NCBI RefSeq assembly: GCF_014192015.1
Contig: NZ_JACHXJ010000005.1
Span: forward strand, 248,001-312,000
Direction of reading: 5' to 3'
Length of the DNA: 64,000 nt
DNA from: Paenibacillus rhizosphaerae
Lineage (GTDB): Bacteria; Bacillota; Bacilli; Paenibacillales; Paenibacillaceae
This document shows, in pieces, positions 8,870-26,122 of the stretch (within the stretch, counting starts at the first letter, position 1; each line of letters begins with the position of its first letter). Below the pieces are notes generated by a model. The model was not told the origin of the DNA. It worked only from the letters and a program-made list of their open reading frames with translations, and did no database searches. Position numbers and translations under genes: made by a program.

Positions 8870-11800
8870 ATGATGAACAGACTCATCGAGGCGGCGATGA
8901 AACGAACGGTGCTGATTCTGATCCTGCTGGCCATCATCTTGGTCTGGGGGGGGACATCCGCTTACCGGATGCATCGGGACTATCTCCCGCCAATCAACAA
9001 TCCTACACTCATGATTACGGTTCATGCCCCGAGTTTCCTGGCCGAGGAGATCCAACAAGCCGTGTCGAGGCCGATTGAGCAGGCGGTCCGCGGCGTGGAA
9101 GAATTGCAATCGGTGGAGACGAACAGTTTTAACGGCGGACTCCTGATCAGCTTGTATTTTCCCTTGAATTACACCATGGATCGTGCCGAGCGGGACGTAA
9201 CCGATGCTTTACGGGATGTAGCCTTGCCAGCGGGCGCGGGCGAACCGACCGTCACCCGCGTTAGCACGAGCTCTTTTCCGATCATGAGGCTGAACATAAC
9301 AAGTCCTTCAGGAAAAGTGGATGAGGATGCGCTGAGAACGACCGTTCAGGCTCAAATCGCCGATGAACTGCTGCATACACCGGGCGTAAGCGAAGTCCGG
9401 GCTACCGGCTCCGCGAAGAACGGTTATGTTCTGTCGGTCCGGATGGAAGACCTCACCAAGTACGGATTAACGGTCGATAACGTCAAGCAGTCCCTGGCCG
9501 GGGTGAGCTTTCCTTCGGTCCAAGGCAAGCTGACGGACAGCATCATGTCCATTCCTCTCGAGGCCTCGGGCTGGAGTCCGAATGCGACGGATTGGATGGA
9601 CCTTCCCATCCAAGGGGCCAACGGGCAGAGCGAGCCTCTCTCCTCGGTTGCAACCTTGTCCCCATCCTTGGTCGACAAGCAGACGATCTCCAGAACCGGA
9701 GGAGCCGCGAGCGTTGTACTGGACATTCTCAAAAAACCGTCGGCCAACATCACGGAAGTATCGGAGGGCATTCACAGCCGTCTCTCAGGCATGACCGGCT
9801 ACCCGCCGGAGGATGTGAAACTTTCCGTCATGTTTGACCAGGGAGCGCAGGTTCACTCTTCCCTGAACAGGCTATTTCGGGAAGGGCTGTTAGGATGTTT
9901 ATTTTCCATGGTCAGCGTATTTCTCTTTTTCCGCAACATCCGGTCGACGCTGCTCATTGCGCTGTCGCTGCCGATTTGCATTCTGGTAACCACGGGGCTG
10001 CTCCACGTGATGGGATTCAGCCTCAATATTCTCACCGTTTCTGGTCTCGTCGTAGCGATGGGGCGGGTGATCGACGACACGATCGTGATCCTCGACAATA
10101 TCCACCGCAAGCAGAGCCAAGCCAAATCTTCGTCTTCCGGGCGGATATCTGAAGCAGCCAAGGAAATGCTGCCCGCCATCGTATCGTCGACGGCGACGAC
10201 TGTTGCGGTGTTTGTTCCCATCGCTTTGGTCGGTGGGATGATTGGTGCCGCGTTCTCGGGGTTCGCGTGGTCGGTGGTCATTGCTCTGCTGACCTCGCTG
10301 CTGGTGGCGGCTTTGGTTGTTCCTGCTTTGTATCATGTATGGCAAAAAGACCGCCCAGGCGCTTCCGGTGTGGCACTCGAACCCGTTACCCGGCGTGTCC
10401 TCCAGTGGGCCTTCTCCCGTAAAGGGAGGTTGATATCCGTCTTTGCGGTGCTGTTGGCAGGTGCCGTCGCTGGAGGCTTCCTGCTGCCGGTGAACTTTTT
10501 GCCTGCCAACGCTACGGGTCAAATGAACGTCCAGTTGGAATTTCCCGAACGGACGACGTTGTCTCAAGTGGATGCTGCTGTAAAGCGTATGGAACAGGTC
10601 CTGGCTTCCGACTCCGGAATTTCAGCCTATTCTTCGGTGCTGGGCTCCACGTTTACTCCTCAATTCGACGATGTGTTTGACGCGGGCGGAGGTTGGATCC
10701 AGGGCGCCAATATCGCCAATATTGCCGTGTCGGTTCAAAAGGGTGAGGACCTCGACGCGGTGACGACGAGGCTGAAAGAACGGCTGACCGCTTTGTCGGG
10801 CAGTGCCGTGGTGACCGTCACGAACCAGAATATATCCGGGGATGACTCCCAGGTAAAAATTGATCTAACCGGGGCCGACGGCGCCACGCTGGAGCAGGCC
10901 GCCGGAACGATCCGCAGCAGCCTCGAAGGGATGGAGAACTTGAGCGTTCTCGGAGCGGCCGATGATGAGGGCGGCCTTGCGGGTTACCGGGTCGAGCTGG
11001 ACCGGGCCAAGCTGGAACGCGCCGGGGTGAAGCCGGAGCAGGTGATGGAAAGAGTTCGGAATTATTTGGCCGGAGAGACGCTGGTCGAGATGAACGCCGG
11101 AAGGCAGGAAGCCGTTCCCCTTGAATTCCGGACCGAGCTCCCGGCCGCCCGCGATGACGCTTCCGGCATGGAACTGCCGGAAACGGAGGTGCTGGCCGTA
11201 CTTGGACGCGAAACGTTCCAAGGAAAGGACGGCAAGTCTGTGCCGCTGGAACAGCTGGCAACCTTGACGAGGGCTGCCGGGACGCAGGTCGTTCGGGAGC
11301 GGGATGGCGAGCCCTTCGCGGTGGTAACCGCGAATATTACATCCAGGGATATCGAGCGGGTCGCCGGACAAGTCAAGAAACGTCTGGGTGAGCTGACCCT
11401 GCCTGCCGGCGTGCATTATTCGATGAACGGCATTACCGCTCAAGTTGGACAAATGATCGGAGAAATGGCGATCGCTTTATCGGTTTCCGTTGTGCTGATC
11501 CTCTTGATTCTCAGCATGGTTTTCCGGGGTTGGAGGGCTCCTCTCTGCGTGCTGGCCGGTATTCCCTTCGCCTTTATCGGCTCTATTGCCGGAATGGTCC
11601 TGACCGGGGGAGAGTGGGATCTGGCCACGCTTGTCGGCCTGCTGATGATTACCGGCATTGCCGCAACGAACGGCATCGTGCTGGTGGACCGGGTCGAGCG
11701 CCATCTATCCGCAGGAATGGCCCCGAGGGAGGCGATTCTTCTCGGCGCTTCCTCCAGGGTACGCCCCGTATTGATGACGGCGGTGACCACCGTATTGACG

Positions 11801-21796: not shown

Positions 21797-21836
21797 AAAA
21801 AAGCAGCCATTCCCCAAAGGGAAGGCTGCTTTTTAT
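21797..21836 (-). terminator. Terminator of the Tat/dehydrogenase operon
   Basis: AAGCAGCC/GGCTGCTT stem extended by TTCCC/GGGAA, flanked by A- and T-runs on both sides, 29 bp after the tatA stop codon. Confidence 0.85.
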
Positions 21837-21864: not shown

Positions 21865-22065
21865 TCAGCGCTTCTCGGCGAGCTGCTTCACCGAAGAGTC
21901 GGAGGAATTCTCTTCTTCCTCAACGATTCCGCGCGTGGAGCTCCGGAACTCACGGAGCGTGTCCCCGAACGCTCTTCCGAGCTGCGGGAGCTTCGATGGC
22001 CCGAACAGGACGAGGGCGATGGCCAGAATAATGACCAGGCCGGATACACCAATGTTGTTCAGCAT
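21865..22065 (-). CDS. tatA: Twin-arginine translocase subunit TatA
   Basis: A 66-aa TatA/TatE-family protein that forms the translocation channel of the Tat system. It has one N-terminal membrane helix (GVSGLVIILAIALVLFG), the FGPSKLPQLGRAFGDTLREF hinge and amphipathic helix typical of TatA, and a charged tail. Last gene of an operon with tatC and a Tat-dependent dehydrogenase. The 148-bp gap to tatC is the largest in the operon; AGAGGTG precedes the ATG. In Firmicutes, TatA-TatC alone makes a working minimal translocase. Confidence 0.95.
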   Translation of the reverse strand: MLNNIGVSGLVIILAIALVLFGPSKLPQLGRAFGDTLREFRSSTRGIVEEEENSSDSSVKQLAEKR

Positions 22066-22213
22066 AGCATGTACACCTCTTTTCTGGATTAGCGTCCTAG
22101 CCCAGATGACTGGACACTGGACGGATGACGGCTGTCGTCTGGTCAGGAATGTAACATCCGAGTTACCAGACTTTGGGGCTGCTGCAGTTGCTTATGGGCA
22201 GGACTGAAACGGC

Positions 22214-22942
22214 CTAGCTGCCGGAAGGGCTGGACTGCATTTTCCGCCACTGGCGGCCGGATACGTATACGCTGATCTCAAACAGCAGGATGAGCGGAAT
22301 GGTGACGGACAGGTGCGAGACGAAGTCCGGCGGCGAAATGCAGGAGCCGAGGATCGCCAGTCCCAGATACGCGTATTTGCGCGTCTTTTTCAGCGAATCG
22401 GGCGTCAGGAGCCCGATTCGGGTCAGGAACAGGATGACCACAGGAAGCTCGAAGGCGATGGCCATCGGGATGACCAGATCGAACAGGAACCCGAAGTACC
22501 GGTCAATCCCATACGTTTCGATCGCCCCGATCGTTTGGTTCATGCGCTTCATGAACTTCAGCATCATTGGAAACACGACGTAGTAGCTGAACGACAGCCC
22601 GGCCAGAAAAAGCATGAATGCGACCGGAATGAAGGGAAACGCGCTCTTAGCTTCATGCTCTGTGAGCCCCGGCTTCACAAACGCCCACAGCTGGTACAGC
22701 AGGACGGGGACCGTGAACATGAGTGCGAAGATGAGCGCGCATTTCATGTAGATCAGAATGCCGTCCGTAAAGGAGAACACGTTCCAGGCGATCGGCTCCG
22801 CCAAGGGCTGCGACTTGAGATAGAGCAGGATGCCGGGTGCGGCATATAATCCGGCGGCAAACGTCACCATGAAGCAGATGCCGACGATGATCAGCCGCTT
22901 CCGCGCCTCGGCGACATGAACAATCCAGTTGTCTTGATCCAT
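22214..22942 (-). CDS. tatC: Twin-arginine translocase subunit TatC
   Basis: A 242-aa multi-helix membrane protein (about six helices), the Tat signal-peptide receptor. Recognisable TatC landmarks are the N-terminal HVAEARKRLI, the FVKPGLTEHE loop after helix 2 (Glu-rich, signal binding), LTRIGLLTPDSLKKTRKYA, and SCISPPDFVSHLSVTIPLILLFE. It lies 44 bp after the GMC oxidoreductase gene and on the same strand, so it is co-expressed with its presumed substrate. Confidence 0.95.
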   Translation of the reverse strand: MDQDNWIVHVAEARKRLIIVGICFMVTFAAGLYAAPGILLYLKSQPLAEPIAWNVFSFTDGILIYMKCALIFALMFTVPVLLYQLWAFVKPGLTEHEAKSAFPFIPVAFMLFLAGLSFSYYVVFPMMLKFMKRMNQTIGAIETYGIDRYFGFLFDLVIPMAIAFELPVVILFLTRIGLLTPDSLKKTRKYAYLGLAILGSCISPPDFVSHLSVTIPLILLFEISVYVSGRQWRKMQSSPSGS

Positions 22943-22986
22943 TTGATTCCCTCCGCTTTTTCCTTGCCCAAAGGCGGTGTTTTCGC

Positions 22987-24708
22987 TTAAACGAGAGATC
23001 CGCCCGATTTCAAATATTTCGCAATGCCTTCCGCAGCCCGGTAAGCGAGGGCGCCAACAGTGCCTGTCGGGTTATAGCCGCTGTTATGCGGGAAGGCGGA
23101 TGCGCCGACGACAAACACATTTTCGGCATCCCACATTTGGAGATAGTTGTTGACGACCGAAGTCGAAGGGTCCGATCCCATTATCGCGCCGCCGGTGTTG
23201 TGCGTGGATTGATACGGCACGATATTGAACGGCCCCAGCTCCTTGGAGGAGCCGATGGACGAAGGCTTCATTTCCTTCATGATGGCCTCGGTTTTGCCTG
23301 CCATGAAGGTGATCATCTGCCGGTCCTGCTCCTCAAAGTCGAACGTGATCCGGATCATCGGTTTGCCGTAAGCGTCCTTGTAGGTCGGATCCAGATCGAG
23401 ATAGTGGTGCCTCCAAGGCATACTCGATCCTTGCGCCGCCACGGTCAAGTAGTTGTTCGCGTATTTCAGCGAGGTCGCTTTAAAGTCTTTGCCCCACGTT
23501 GGCGTCCCTTTCGGAACCGAATTGTTCGCGATCGGGCGGAGCCCAGTTTGCGAAATCCGGATGCCGGCACCGTGGATGAAATTCAGATCGCTGTGGTCAA
23601 AGTTGTCGCCGTTGAAGTCCGGGATTTCCATGCCAAGCGCGCCGGCTCCGGCAAACAGGTTGAACTGCTTGTCGTCATAAAATCCCGTCGCCGATCCGCC
23701 ATTCGTTTGGTAAGCGTAGTTTTTGCCCACCACGCCTGTTCCCGTATTCGGATCGTACGGCTTGCCAAGCTTGGACGTCAGCAGCAAGCGAACGTTGTTG
23801 AACACGTAGCTTGCCAGAATGACGACATCCGCCGGCTGCTCATATTCCTGACCGGTCAACGGATTGACGTATTTCACCCCGGTGGCCTTTTTCCCGTCAT
23901 GCAGAATATCCGTTACGTTGGCATACTCACGGAGCTCGAAATGCCCCGATTTCTGTGCGACCGGAAGGACGGTCACGACCGGATCGGCCTTAGCGCCGTA
24001 TTCGCAGCCGAAGCGCTCGCAATAGCCGCAGTACTGGCAAGGGGCCCGGGTAATGCCATCCGGGTTCGTATATTGCTCGGACAGGTTGGCCGACGGCATC
24101 ATATACGGATGGTAGCCAAGCTTTTTGGTCGCTTCCTCGAACATTTTGATCATCGGCGTCTTGATCATCGGCTTGGTCGGGAACGGTTTGGAGCGCTTGC
24201 CGACCATCGCCGCCTGTTCCTGATCCCCGGAAATGCCCGCGACCTCCTCGAACTTGTAGAAATAGGGCTCCAGCTCGTCGTATGTAATGCCCCAGTCCTG
24301 AATGGTCATGCCGTCCGGAATTTTTTTCTTTCCATAGCGCTCGATCGTTTTGCTCCGGATTTCGAAATCGTACGGCAGGAACCGGTATGTTTGTCCGTTC
24401 CAGTGGATGCCCGCGCCTCCGAGGCCCTCCCCGAGCAGGAAGGCCCCGTATTGGCGCATCGGCAGGGCCGTCATTTTCGACGTGTTCCGAAAGGTGATCG
24501 TTTCCTTGGATAAATCCTGCATCAGCTCATAGCGCTGGGCGTAACGGAGCTCGTCATGGACCATGTAATAATCCTCAGTGGAACGGGGTTTGCCGCGCTC
24601 CAGGCCGACGACCTTGATTCCCTGCTTGCTTAATTCGGCGGCGATAATGCCGCCGATCCATCCCATCCCGACGATCAATACGGGGACACTTGGCAATTTC
24701 GTAGCCAT
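22987..24708 (-). CDS. GMC-family FAD dehydrogenase, large subunit (gluconate 2-dehydrogenase-like)
   Basis: A 573-aa flavoprotein. The FAD-binding dinucleotide motif is IVGMGWIGG (residues 12-20) and a second FAD loop is LGGAGIHWNG (96-105). The C-terminal GMC region has TGGAIMG and HNSGYNPTGTVGALAYRAAEGI. A cysteine cluster C224-x2-C227-x2-C230-x4-C235 may hold an iron-sulfur centre, as reported for FAD-dependent glucose/gluconate dehydrogenase complexes. It has no signal peptide. The small-subunit gene just upstream encodes a Tat signal, so co-export of the folded complex is likely. Oxidises a sugar, sugar acid or alcohol; the exact substrate is not visible. Confidence 0.85.
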   Translation of the reverse strand: MATKLPSVPVLIVGMGWIGGIIAAELSKQGIKVVGLERGKPRSTEDYYMVHDELRYAQRYELMQDLSKETITFRNTSKMTALPMRQYGAFLLGEGLGGAGIHWNGQTYRFLPYDFEIRSKTIERYGKKKIPDGMTIQDWGITYDELEPYFYKFEEVAGISGDQEQAAMVGKRSKPFPTKPMIKTPMIKMFEEATKKLGYHPYMMPSANLSEQYTNPDGITRAPCQYCGYCERFGCEYGAKADPVVTVLPVAQKSGHFELREYANVTDILHDGKKATGVKYVNPLTGQEYEQPADVVILASYVFNNVRLLLTSKLGKPYDPNTGTGVVGKNYAYQTNGGSATGFYDDKQFNLFAGAGALGMEIPDFNGDNFDHSDLNFIHGAGIRISQTGLRPIANNSVPKGTPTWGKDFKATSLKYANNYLTVAAQGSSMPWRHHYLDLDPTYKDAYGKPMIRITFDFEEQDRQMITFMAGKTEAIMKEMKPSSIGSSKELGPFNIVPYQSTHNTGGAIMGSDPSTSVVNNYLQMWDAENVFVVGASAFPHNSGYNPTGTVGALAYRAAEGIAKYLKSGGSLV

Positions 24709-24741
24709 GGATAACTCTCCTTCTCTGTCAGCATGTAGAAA

Positions 24742-25518
24742 TTAATGTGTGGCCAAATGGTCATGCAGGCTGAGTGGATCCGTTTTGGCAAAAGCGTCCT
24801 CACCGACGATTTTGGCATAGGACATCTGGTTGCCCGGATAATTCCGCATCTTCCAGCCCTCCATGTTGACGTTGCCGCCATAGAGCGGGTCCGCATATAC
24901 GCCTTCGAGCGTCATGTTGCGAAGCAGATCGAAGAAGCTTTTGCCGGTAATGCCGTTAATCACTTCAATGTCACCTTTTTCCAGCGAAGTCAGAATGGCG
25001 TCTTTTTCTTCGTCGGCGAGGTCGGTAAATCCCTTTTGGTATTTTTTCTGGCTGGCGTTGTCCATGGCGGTAAGCCCCAGCAGGAAGACTTCGTTGCGGT
25101 TAATGCTCTGATAGTCGCCCTGCGTGGCTTCTCCTTTAACAAAAGGTCCCATGCGGTATTCGCGGGCGTTGAAACCCCAGTGACCCGCTAACTGATGGTC
25201 AATATAATAAGCGACGCCCAGATCGTTAGCTCCAGGGCCGTTATCATCCTTCGGAAAAATGCGCTCTGTCGCTGCCTGGGTAATTTGCAGCTGGCGCTGG
25301 TTGAAGTACATGGTCGCATGGTTATAATCTGCAGCAGGCTGCGTTCCGGTCTGCGGCGATGTCGGCGCGTTCGTGGCCGGTTTCTTTTTGTTGAAGCCGC
25401 CGGTAATGGCCCCGCCGATCACGCCCCCGACGACCAGACCGCCGATCGCCGTCCCTGAATATTTCAGGAACTGGCGCCTGGACCCGCTAGGTGGTTGTTC
25501 TTTTTGTTGTTCTGCCAT
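24742..25518 (-). CDS. Gluconate 2-dehydrogenase subunit 3-like protein with Tat signal
   Basis: A 258-aa small subunit. The N-terminus carries a twin-arginine signal, SRRQFLKYSG (residues 12-21), followed by a Gly/Ala/Val hydrophobic stretch GGLVVGGVIGGAITGG. The mature part resembles gluconate 2-dehydrogenase subunit 3 (DUF/PF13618 type): RIFPKDDNGPGANDLGVAYYIDHQLAG and FFDLLRNMTLEGVYADPLYGGN. In that family this subunit guides the flavoprotein through the Tat pore. First gene of the operon, 33 bp before the GMC gene, divergent from a cytochrome c lipoprotein. AAGGAGG precedes the ATG. Confidence 0.88.
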   Translation of the reverse strand: MAEQQKEQPPSGSRRQFLKYSGTAIGGLVVGGVIGGAITGGFNKKKPATNAPTSPQTGTQPAADYNHATMYFNQRQLQITQAATERIFPKDDNGPGANDLGVAYYIDHQLAGHWGFNAREYRMGPFVKGEATQGDYQSINRNEVFLLGLTAMDNASQKKYQKGFTDLADEEKDAILTSLEKGDIEVINGITGKSFFDLLRNMTLEGVYADPLYGGNVNMEGWKMRNYPGNQMSYAKIVGEDAFAKTDPLSLHDHLATH

Positions 25519-25689
25519 GGTTTCATTCCTCCTTGTGGGATATGTTCCCCTTTGCTGGGTATATTATGCACATGCCAAGCCCGGTCTGGAGAGCATAAAT
25601 ATATGAAAAACCGTGTACATGAAAAGCCTATTCCTGGGGCATCGTAGCTGTATAGGCAAATTTGAATAAGTTGAAGGGAGACAACCTCA

Positions 25690-26067
25690 ATGAAAAAATC
25701 GATCATTTTCGTGAGCCTGCTGCTTGTTCTTTCCCTGTCCGCCTGCGGCAAGAGCAGCGACAATAACAACAACGAAGGCGCAGCCAATAACAACGCCGGG
25801 AATACGGGGACAACGACCGGTCAAACCGGCGGCAACGCAGCAGCCGGTAACGGGGAAGCGATCTTTAAAGCCAACTGCGTCAGCTGCCACGGCAACAACC
25901 TCGAAGGCGCTGTAGGACCGAACCTGCAAAAGGTCGGAGCCAAATACTCCGCGGACGAAATCGCCGGGATCGTATCGAACGGCCGCGGCGGCATGCCGGC
26001 TTTCAAAGGCCAACTGTCCGATGCTGACATTCAAGGTGTAGCCCAATGGCTGGCCGCCAAAAAATAA
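25690..26067 (+). CDS. Cytochrome c lipoprotein (c551-like)
   Basis: A 125-aa lipid-anchored monohaem cytochrome c. The signal ends in lipobox LSAC (Cys19). An Asn/Gly/Thr-rich linker spans 24-50. The haem site is CVSCH (Cys63, Cys66, His67) with the distal Met in GGMPAF. Similar in design to Bacillus CccB. Divergent from the Tat-exported dehydrogenase operon over 170 bp, so it is the likely electron acceptor of that enzyme, passing electrons to the respiratory chain (inference from context). GAAGGGAG ribosome binding site upstream. Confidence 0.9.
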
Positions 26068-26087: not shown

Positions 26088-26122
26088 AAAAAGCAGCCTT
26101 TCCGTCAGGGGGCTGCTTTTTT
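26088..26122 (+). terminator. Terminator after the cytochrome c gene
   Basis: AAAAAGCAGCC (26088-26098) pairs with GGCTGCTTTTTT (26111-26122). Confidence 0.88.

Follow-up and report, generated by a model that had tools for sequence, protein, structure and literature searches.

Many Bacillales retain multiple Tat translocases for reasons that are still unsettled, and a locus of Paenibacillus rhizosphaerae raises the question of whether one of them may be tied to a single redox enzyme. In the 64-kb window (the whole stretch of DNA analysed), tatA, tatC and the genes for a GMC flavoprotein and a Gluconate_2-dh3 small subunit (dh3) lie on the minus strand, with a gene for a monohaem c551-type lipoprotein divergent from them (Table 1). 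All five parts listed in a preliminary description of this DNA were found in place, with domain and signal models scoring over their cut-offs. The product of tatA scored below the cut-off of the TatB model TIGR01410, and the cassette TatC with one TatA-type protein and no TatB is a minimal TatAC translocase. The dh3 protein begins with a Tat signal (GSRRQFLKYSG) that was recognised by the TAT signal model TIGR01409 (20.5; cut-off 16.7). The GMC flavoprotein has a GxGxxG-type motif close to its N-terminus and no visible signal peptide. By eye, the cytochrome contains the lipobox LSAC and a single CXXCH in 125 aa.

Table 1. Features of the dehydrogenase–Tat–cytochrome cassette (positions in the window).
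Feature	Position	Strand	Evidence
Terminator hairpin with T-run past tatA, operon end	21798–21834	-	folding z -4.2; 0/200 shuffles as stable
tatA (66 aa)	21865–22065	-	TatA_B_E 69.3 bits; TIGR01411 59.7 (cut-off 53.9)
tatC (242 aa), TatC clade II	22214–22942	-	TIGR00945 196.2 (cut-off 132.7); trees
GMC flavoprotein, catalytic subunit (573 aa)	22987–24708	-	GMC_oxred_C 70.4 and GMC_oxred_N 37.4, both above cut-off
dh3, Gluconate_2-dh3 small subunit (258 aa), likely carrier	24742–25518	-	PF13618 111.2 (cut-off 23.4)
Shared divergent intergenic stretch, 171 nt	25519–25689	.	coordinates
Monohaem c551-type lipoprotein, 125 aa, probable electron acceptor	25690–26067	+	NF045774 119.7 (cut-off 118)
Terminator hairpin with T-run past cytochrome	26088–26121	+	folding z -2.6; 4/200 shuffles as stable

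Gaps of 33 nt (dh3/GMC), 44 nt (GMC/tatC) and 148 nt (tatC/tatA) separate the minus-strand genes, and a purine-rich stretch resembling a ribosome-binding site is found upstream of every cassette gene. Promoter-like matches numbered 5, against 5.3 expected by chance. Since hairpins bound the cassette, the downstream sugar ABC genes probably form a separate unit; with a terminator in between, their membership of the cassette is unlikely. The sugar ABC family, judged on first residues, was absent from the 45 most widespread neighbour clusters.

The closest solved structure to the GMC protein is the large subunit of fructose dehydrogenase (FDH; full-length match, E 5e-31), followed by Burkholderia FAD-glucose dehydrogenase (FAD-GDH). 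His503 and Asn546, which align with residues altered in solved FDH mutants, are kept in 83/85 rows, and Cys224, 227, 230 and 235 are invariant (85/85 GMC rows). Three of these, Cys224, 230 and 235, coincide with cysteines of FDH whose spacing resembles that of ligands 212, 218 and 222 in the Burkholderia enzyme. The GMC subunit probably carries an Fe-S cluster; because the fourth cysteine, Cys227, falls off the FDH cysteines, a 4Fe-4S cluster is possible. By kinship, the substrate would be a sugar, polyol or sugar acid, an assignment that we somewhat favour. The motif RRxF[LIMV] occurs in 79/80 dh3 proteins of the survey described below, the one exception (L027) being a frame extended upstream. 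The dh3 protein of the cassette had no sequence match to the solved FDH or GDH small subunits, and a fold search with its predicted structure (mean pLDDT 68) found nothing similar at E up to 0.001.

In Burkholderia GDH, a 3Fe-4S cluster connects FAD with the haems of a trihaem subunit; the small subunit, termed a hitchhiker of Tat, forms a solved complex with the catalytic subunit (PMC6719666, available part). The same logic had been proposed for the present flavoprotein, and it stood up well: the GMC protein is signal-less, dh3 has the Tat signal, the two genes are adjacent in 80/80 loci, and a fusion of both occurs in the host genome. It is thus very likely, on the predicted proteins, that GMC hitchhikes on dh3 through Tat. 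The fusion, the third dh3 of the host (710 aa; L017 7028–9160), has no RR motif visible at its start, and single-chain fusions lacking a visible Tat signal were also seen at L188 4667–6799 and L189 4403–6535. As predicted proteins, such fusions are natural evidence that both subunits interact, and they are perhaps a cytoplasmic version of the enzyme.

Relatives were sought with two dh3 proteins of the host, and the best 80 of 117 were kept. By name, 78 of these 80 are Bacillales-type Firmicutes; L088 is a Halomonas, and L063 is named Pseudomonas but groups with Cytobacillus in the GMC tree. Among these best 80 of 117 loci, GMC adjoins dh3 in all 80, and 59 have tat genes no more than 2 kb from the pair. 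A tatC gene is present within this distance in 41/80 loci (40 of these also with tatA), tatA only in 18/80 (6 of these with a cupredoxin), and neither in 21/80. As the 80 loci are the most similar ones, an even draw of the host family was added, in which PF13618 was matched in 23/59 genomes (31 match rows, 10 of fusion length). With the host excluded, tatC was found within 3 kb in 15/18 non-fusion loci of this draw, the misses being L182, L184 and L186. No TatA or TatC was detected at 12 control loci from 149 genomes of the phylum (12 with a match besides the host), in stretches of 4.5–20 kb. The same was true of 12 control loci from 75 genomes of the Halomonas match's class, a group in which sensitivity may be lower with search models that come from Bacillales. 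Chance linkage of the tat genes is ruled out by 59/80 and 15/18 against 0/24 controls. The linkage of substrate and translocase is real, and the possibility raised in the preliminary description, that tat genes are rarely linked to the complex, is at odds with these counts. Besides dh3, GMC, TatA and TatC, the widest real-looking neighbour cluster is an ABC ATPase, found at scattered positions in 18/81 loci.

The TatC tree comprised 101 rows, representing the TatCs of 29 genomes together with those of the cassettes; the fragment L169 was left out of all TatC trees, and alignment A2 was made without L027 and L057. Cassette-linked labels were scripted from neighbours within 3 kb, with L107 labelled on dh3 alone. 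All 36 rows of clade I (SH-aLRT 99) are cassette-linked, mostly in the order GMC-tatA-tatC, and their hosts are Bacillaceae, Caryophanaceae and Salinicoccus. Clade II (SH-aLRT 100), to which the cassette of the host belongs, has 9/10 linked rows, or 22/23 with the family draw added in a tree without L142 and L153 (long branches) and 11 near-copies; its sole unlinked TatC is L123 of a Cohnella. A single clade for the 45 core cassette TatCs was rejected (AU p = 1.5e-4), the core rows having been chosen after the first tree, with L123, L146 and L167 off both sides and the long-branched L142 and L153 out. The two cassette TatC clades imply either two or more separate unions of tatC with dh3-GMC or a single one followed by replacement in one line. 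Clade II TatCs pair with two GMC lineages, for which a single GMC clade was rejected (AU p 2e-38), and they are found in two arrangements: the cytochrome gene divergent from dh3-GMC-tatC-tatA, or divergent from a tatC-tatA pair that converges with GMC-dh3. Gene orders thus vary between loci, and the parts remain together. More tentatively, Bacillales dh3-GMC may have gained a private, complex-specific TatC lineage at least twice, so that enzyme, proofreading exporter and acceptor would form one portable unit with an exchangeable acceptor slot (haem c551 or cupredoxin lipoprotein). A private lineage is meant for this sample only, as the trees were built with quick searches, the genomes were mostly picked for having dh3 and the groups tested were set after a first tree.

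TatC and GMC distances were correlated in Mantel tests run without L077, L107, L146 and L167 (r 0.83 with 22 rows, 0.96 with 34 rows). Co-evolution of the two was nonetheless rejected as an explanation: in 14 genomes, GMC was tracked equally by their other TatCs (0.877 against 0.882), and descent explains the correlation. With clade I only, the corresponding values were 0.860 against 0.891 (10 genomes). A TatC lies beside dh3 in 17/29 genomes, each of which has one or more additional TatCs. Six of the 29 genomes have one TatC, unlinked to dh3, and each has tatA near a dh3-GMC pair (in L036, the contig ends right past tatA). If the complexes of these six are exported by Tat, the lone unlinked TatC must export them.

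The host genome (7.55 Mb; nearest named relative Paenibacillus cellulositrophicus, with dh3 99% and GMC 99% identical) has four TatC and five TatA matches. A second tatA-tatC pair (L016) is located beside a gene that looks groEL-like by eye and a molybdopterin-binding-family gene, and a third (L014) near genes judged by eye to be pyrB-like and rluD-like. The fourth TatC (L013) is encoded by a tatC that, together with a tatA, brackets two genes, one of the L-PSP family and one of the amine-oxidase family whose product has a Tat-like RR signal. A paralogous dh3-GMC pair (L015), 52% and 74% identical to that of the cassette, has tatA and a cupredoxin lipoprotein gene (9791–10192) alongside and no tatC. 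The cassette had been called self-contained, a term that is not supported: the host has three further TatCs and a paralogous pair accompanied only by tatA and a cupredoxin lipoprotein, and six of the surveyed genomes must depend on a single TatC that is unlinked. Also considered had been a second tatAC locus exporting the complex: further loci do exist, one of the three additional TatCs being in the tatA-tatC pair beside the groEL-type gene, and they are candidate exporters of the complex.

Dedicated Tat loci are exemplified by phoD-tatAdCd of Bacillus subtilis, in which a Tat substrate gene adjoins its own minimal tatA-tatC (PMC3068169, available part). The present cassette likewise has a conserved substrate gene beside tatA and tatC, but here a redox complex of two subunits would be exported, and a likely acceptor is encoded alongside. 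Figure 3 of a 2013 map of tatC neighbourhoods in Bacilli names, in its legend, gluconate 2-dehydrogenase subunit 3 and a flavoprotein near tatC; the pair is not discussed in section 14, and no frequency, controls, two-lineage history or acceptor was found in the available part of that paper (PMC3827258). Nothing on such a cassette was found in the available part of PMC4148689. The neighbourhood was found in PMC3827258 only, in a literature search that judged other papers mostly by title or the start of the abstract and left subscription titles largely outside. The cassette, which the preliminary description singled out for a closer look, is not a singular one: it is found repeatedly within the family, and the genes next to tatC had already been named in the 2013 legend. 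What is added to that map is the linkage frequency with controls, the two TatC lineages, the reshuffled gene orders and the exchangeable acceptor, together with the observation that the cassette TatC is always an extra TatC in the genomes searched.

Among characterised enzymes, Burkholderia FAD-GDH, Gluconobacter FDH and gluconate 2-dehydrogenase (GADH) share with the cassette a signal-less GMC subunit, a small subunit with a Tat signal and the His/Asn pair. Cysteines at the 3Fe-4S positions are also shared, and electrons are expected to reach haem c. Unlike these systems, in which the acceptor is a trihaem subunit, the cassette has a separate monohaem lipoprotein and an extra invariant cysteine; it also includes tatC and tatA within its cluster, and its dh3 is unmatched to solved small subunits by sequence or by a low-pLDDT fold model. 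The replacement of a multihaem subunit by a monohaem lipoprotein, already noted in the preliminary description, agrees with the one CXXCH and with an NF045774 score over the cut-off. As the linked cytochrome has one CXXCH in its 125 aa and a trihaem cytochrome c subunit is absent, the system was not filed as a member of GADH/FDH/FAD-GDH. The protein resembles Bacillus cytochrome c551 (NF045774) in its lipobox and single CXXCH, and differs from it in being encoded divergently beside a dehydrogenase operon.

A c551-type lipoprotein is found at 9/18 loci of the family draw and a cupredoxin lipoprotein at 2/18, with the stretches of L176 and L181 stopping just past tatC, where the cytochrome would sit. 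Divergent c551-type lipoproteins are also present at L018–L021, L024 and L031. The c551-like neighbour cluster has eight loci, and most of the 80 loci are without such a gene by the model used. Cupredoxin lipoproteins where relatives of the host cassette have the cytochrome were seen in L015, L022, L023, L025, L026, L028, L029, L177 and L179. Another c551-like protein of the host genome (L191) shares 41–58% BLAST identity with several cassette cytochromes, which are consequently not clearly apart from it. The host also encodes what we take to be subunit II of a caa3-type oxidase, bearing a haem c domain (L193), and, presumably, a QcrC-type cytochrome (L192), which together would offer a path to oxygen.

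The cassette is probably best explained as encoding, in a bacterium with one membrane, a respiratory FAD dehydrogenase of the membrane side that functions in the manner of the gluconate and fructose dehydrogenases, hitchhikes through Tat, favours its own TatAC and feeds a monohaem lipoprotein. The signal-less GMC subunit would fold in the cytoplasm with FAD and a probable Fe-S cluster and bind dh3, and the folded complex would cross the membrane on the twin-arginine signal of dh3, with the adjoining minimal TatAC pair predicted to be co-expressed and to serve as its preferred exporter. On the outer side, a sugar, polyol or sugar acid would be oxidised; the electrons would leave FAD via the Fe-S cluster, reach the lipid-anchored monohaem c551 and finally arrive at an oxidase that uses cytochrome c. 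A GMC subunit that stays in the cytoplasm while dh3 is exported alone would agree with the missing signal peptide and with the fusion lacking an RR motif at its N-terminus; it is nevertheless highly improbable, because the constant adjacency of the two genes and the fusion itself argue for a complex, and the Burkholderia GDH subunits form one that has been solved (PMC6719666, available part).

As to the exporter, a general TatAC may do most of the export, with the linked tat genes adding capacity or travelling along without substrate specificity. This would suit the further TatC kept by all 17 genomes with a cassette TatC, the six genomes with a single unlinked TatC, the host paralogue without adjoining tatC, the 21/80 loci without a tat gene within 2 kb and a co-evolution signal that does not exceed descent; moreover, the specificities of B. 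subtilis TatAdCd and TatAyCy overlap (PMC3068169, available part). We consider it unlikely, however, in view of the recurrent linkage in differing gene orders, the two cassette-bound TatC clades and the 0/24 control loci, and lean towards the cassette TatAC as the predicted preferred exporter. For the acceptor, transfer from dh3-GMC to the cassette cytochrome appears reasonably likely from gene content. It is rather doubtful that the cytochrome is a general c551 neighbour with another partner and that dh3-GMC donates its electrons to something else, such as quinone or a different cytochrome. Such an arrangement would be consistent with the many loci without a c551-like neighbour, the cupredoxin lipoprotein of the paralogue and the second c551-like protein, L191, from which the cassette cytochromes are not clearly apart, whereas the divergent placement of the cytochrome next to the module, in either of two gene orders, at 9/18 family loci and in the six further loci given above argues for the cassette cytochrome as acceptor.

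A redox complex repeatedly tied to tatC, in genomes that in this survey always keep another TatC, provides natural replicates for the study of Tat specificity. Versions that are tatC-linked, tatA-only or unlinked allow direct comparison, and the first two are both present in the host genome. The locus further directs attention to extracellular FAD dehydrogenases of Gram-positive bacteria whose acceptor is a monohaem or copper protein and which might find use in bioelectrodes.

Several variants of Tat and dh3-GMC loci were also observed. L070 (10001–18070) has three tandem dh3-GMC pairs. In L077 (9959–17870), two dh3-GMC-tatC sets face each other; both include a tatC of their own, and no tatA was detected. 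Planococcaceae-type cassette TatCs (L056, L057, L058, L068, L074, L081 and L083; tatC at ~12.7 kb) are 293–303 aa long versus 242 in the window, and the TatC of L082 (272 aa) has its extra length at the N-terminus. The amine-oxidase frame of L013 (6227–10116; G000:C5 ~117–121 kb) looks split in two in the assembly, and similar neighbours adjoin TatC in L100, L112 and L120. In two other Paenibacillus genomes (L103 3458–6167 and L110 3186–5894), tatC-tatA adjoins the gene for a PhoX-type phosphatase that carries a Tat-like signal, PhoX being identified by Pfam in L103 and by a similar protein start in L110; this PhoX-tatC-tatA arrangement is likely another dedicated Tat locus.
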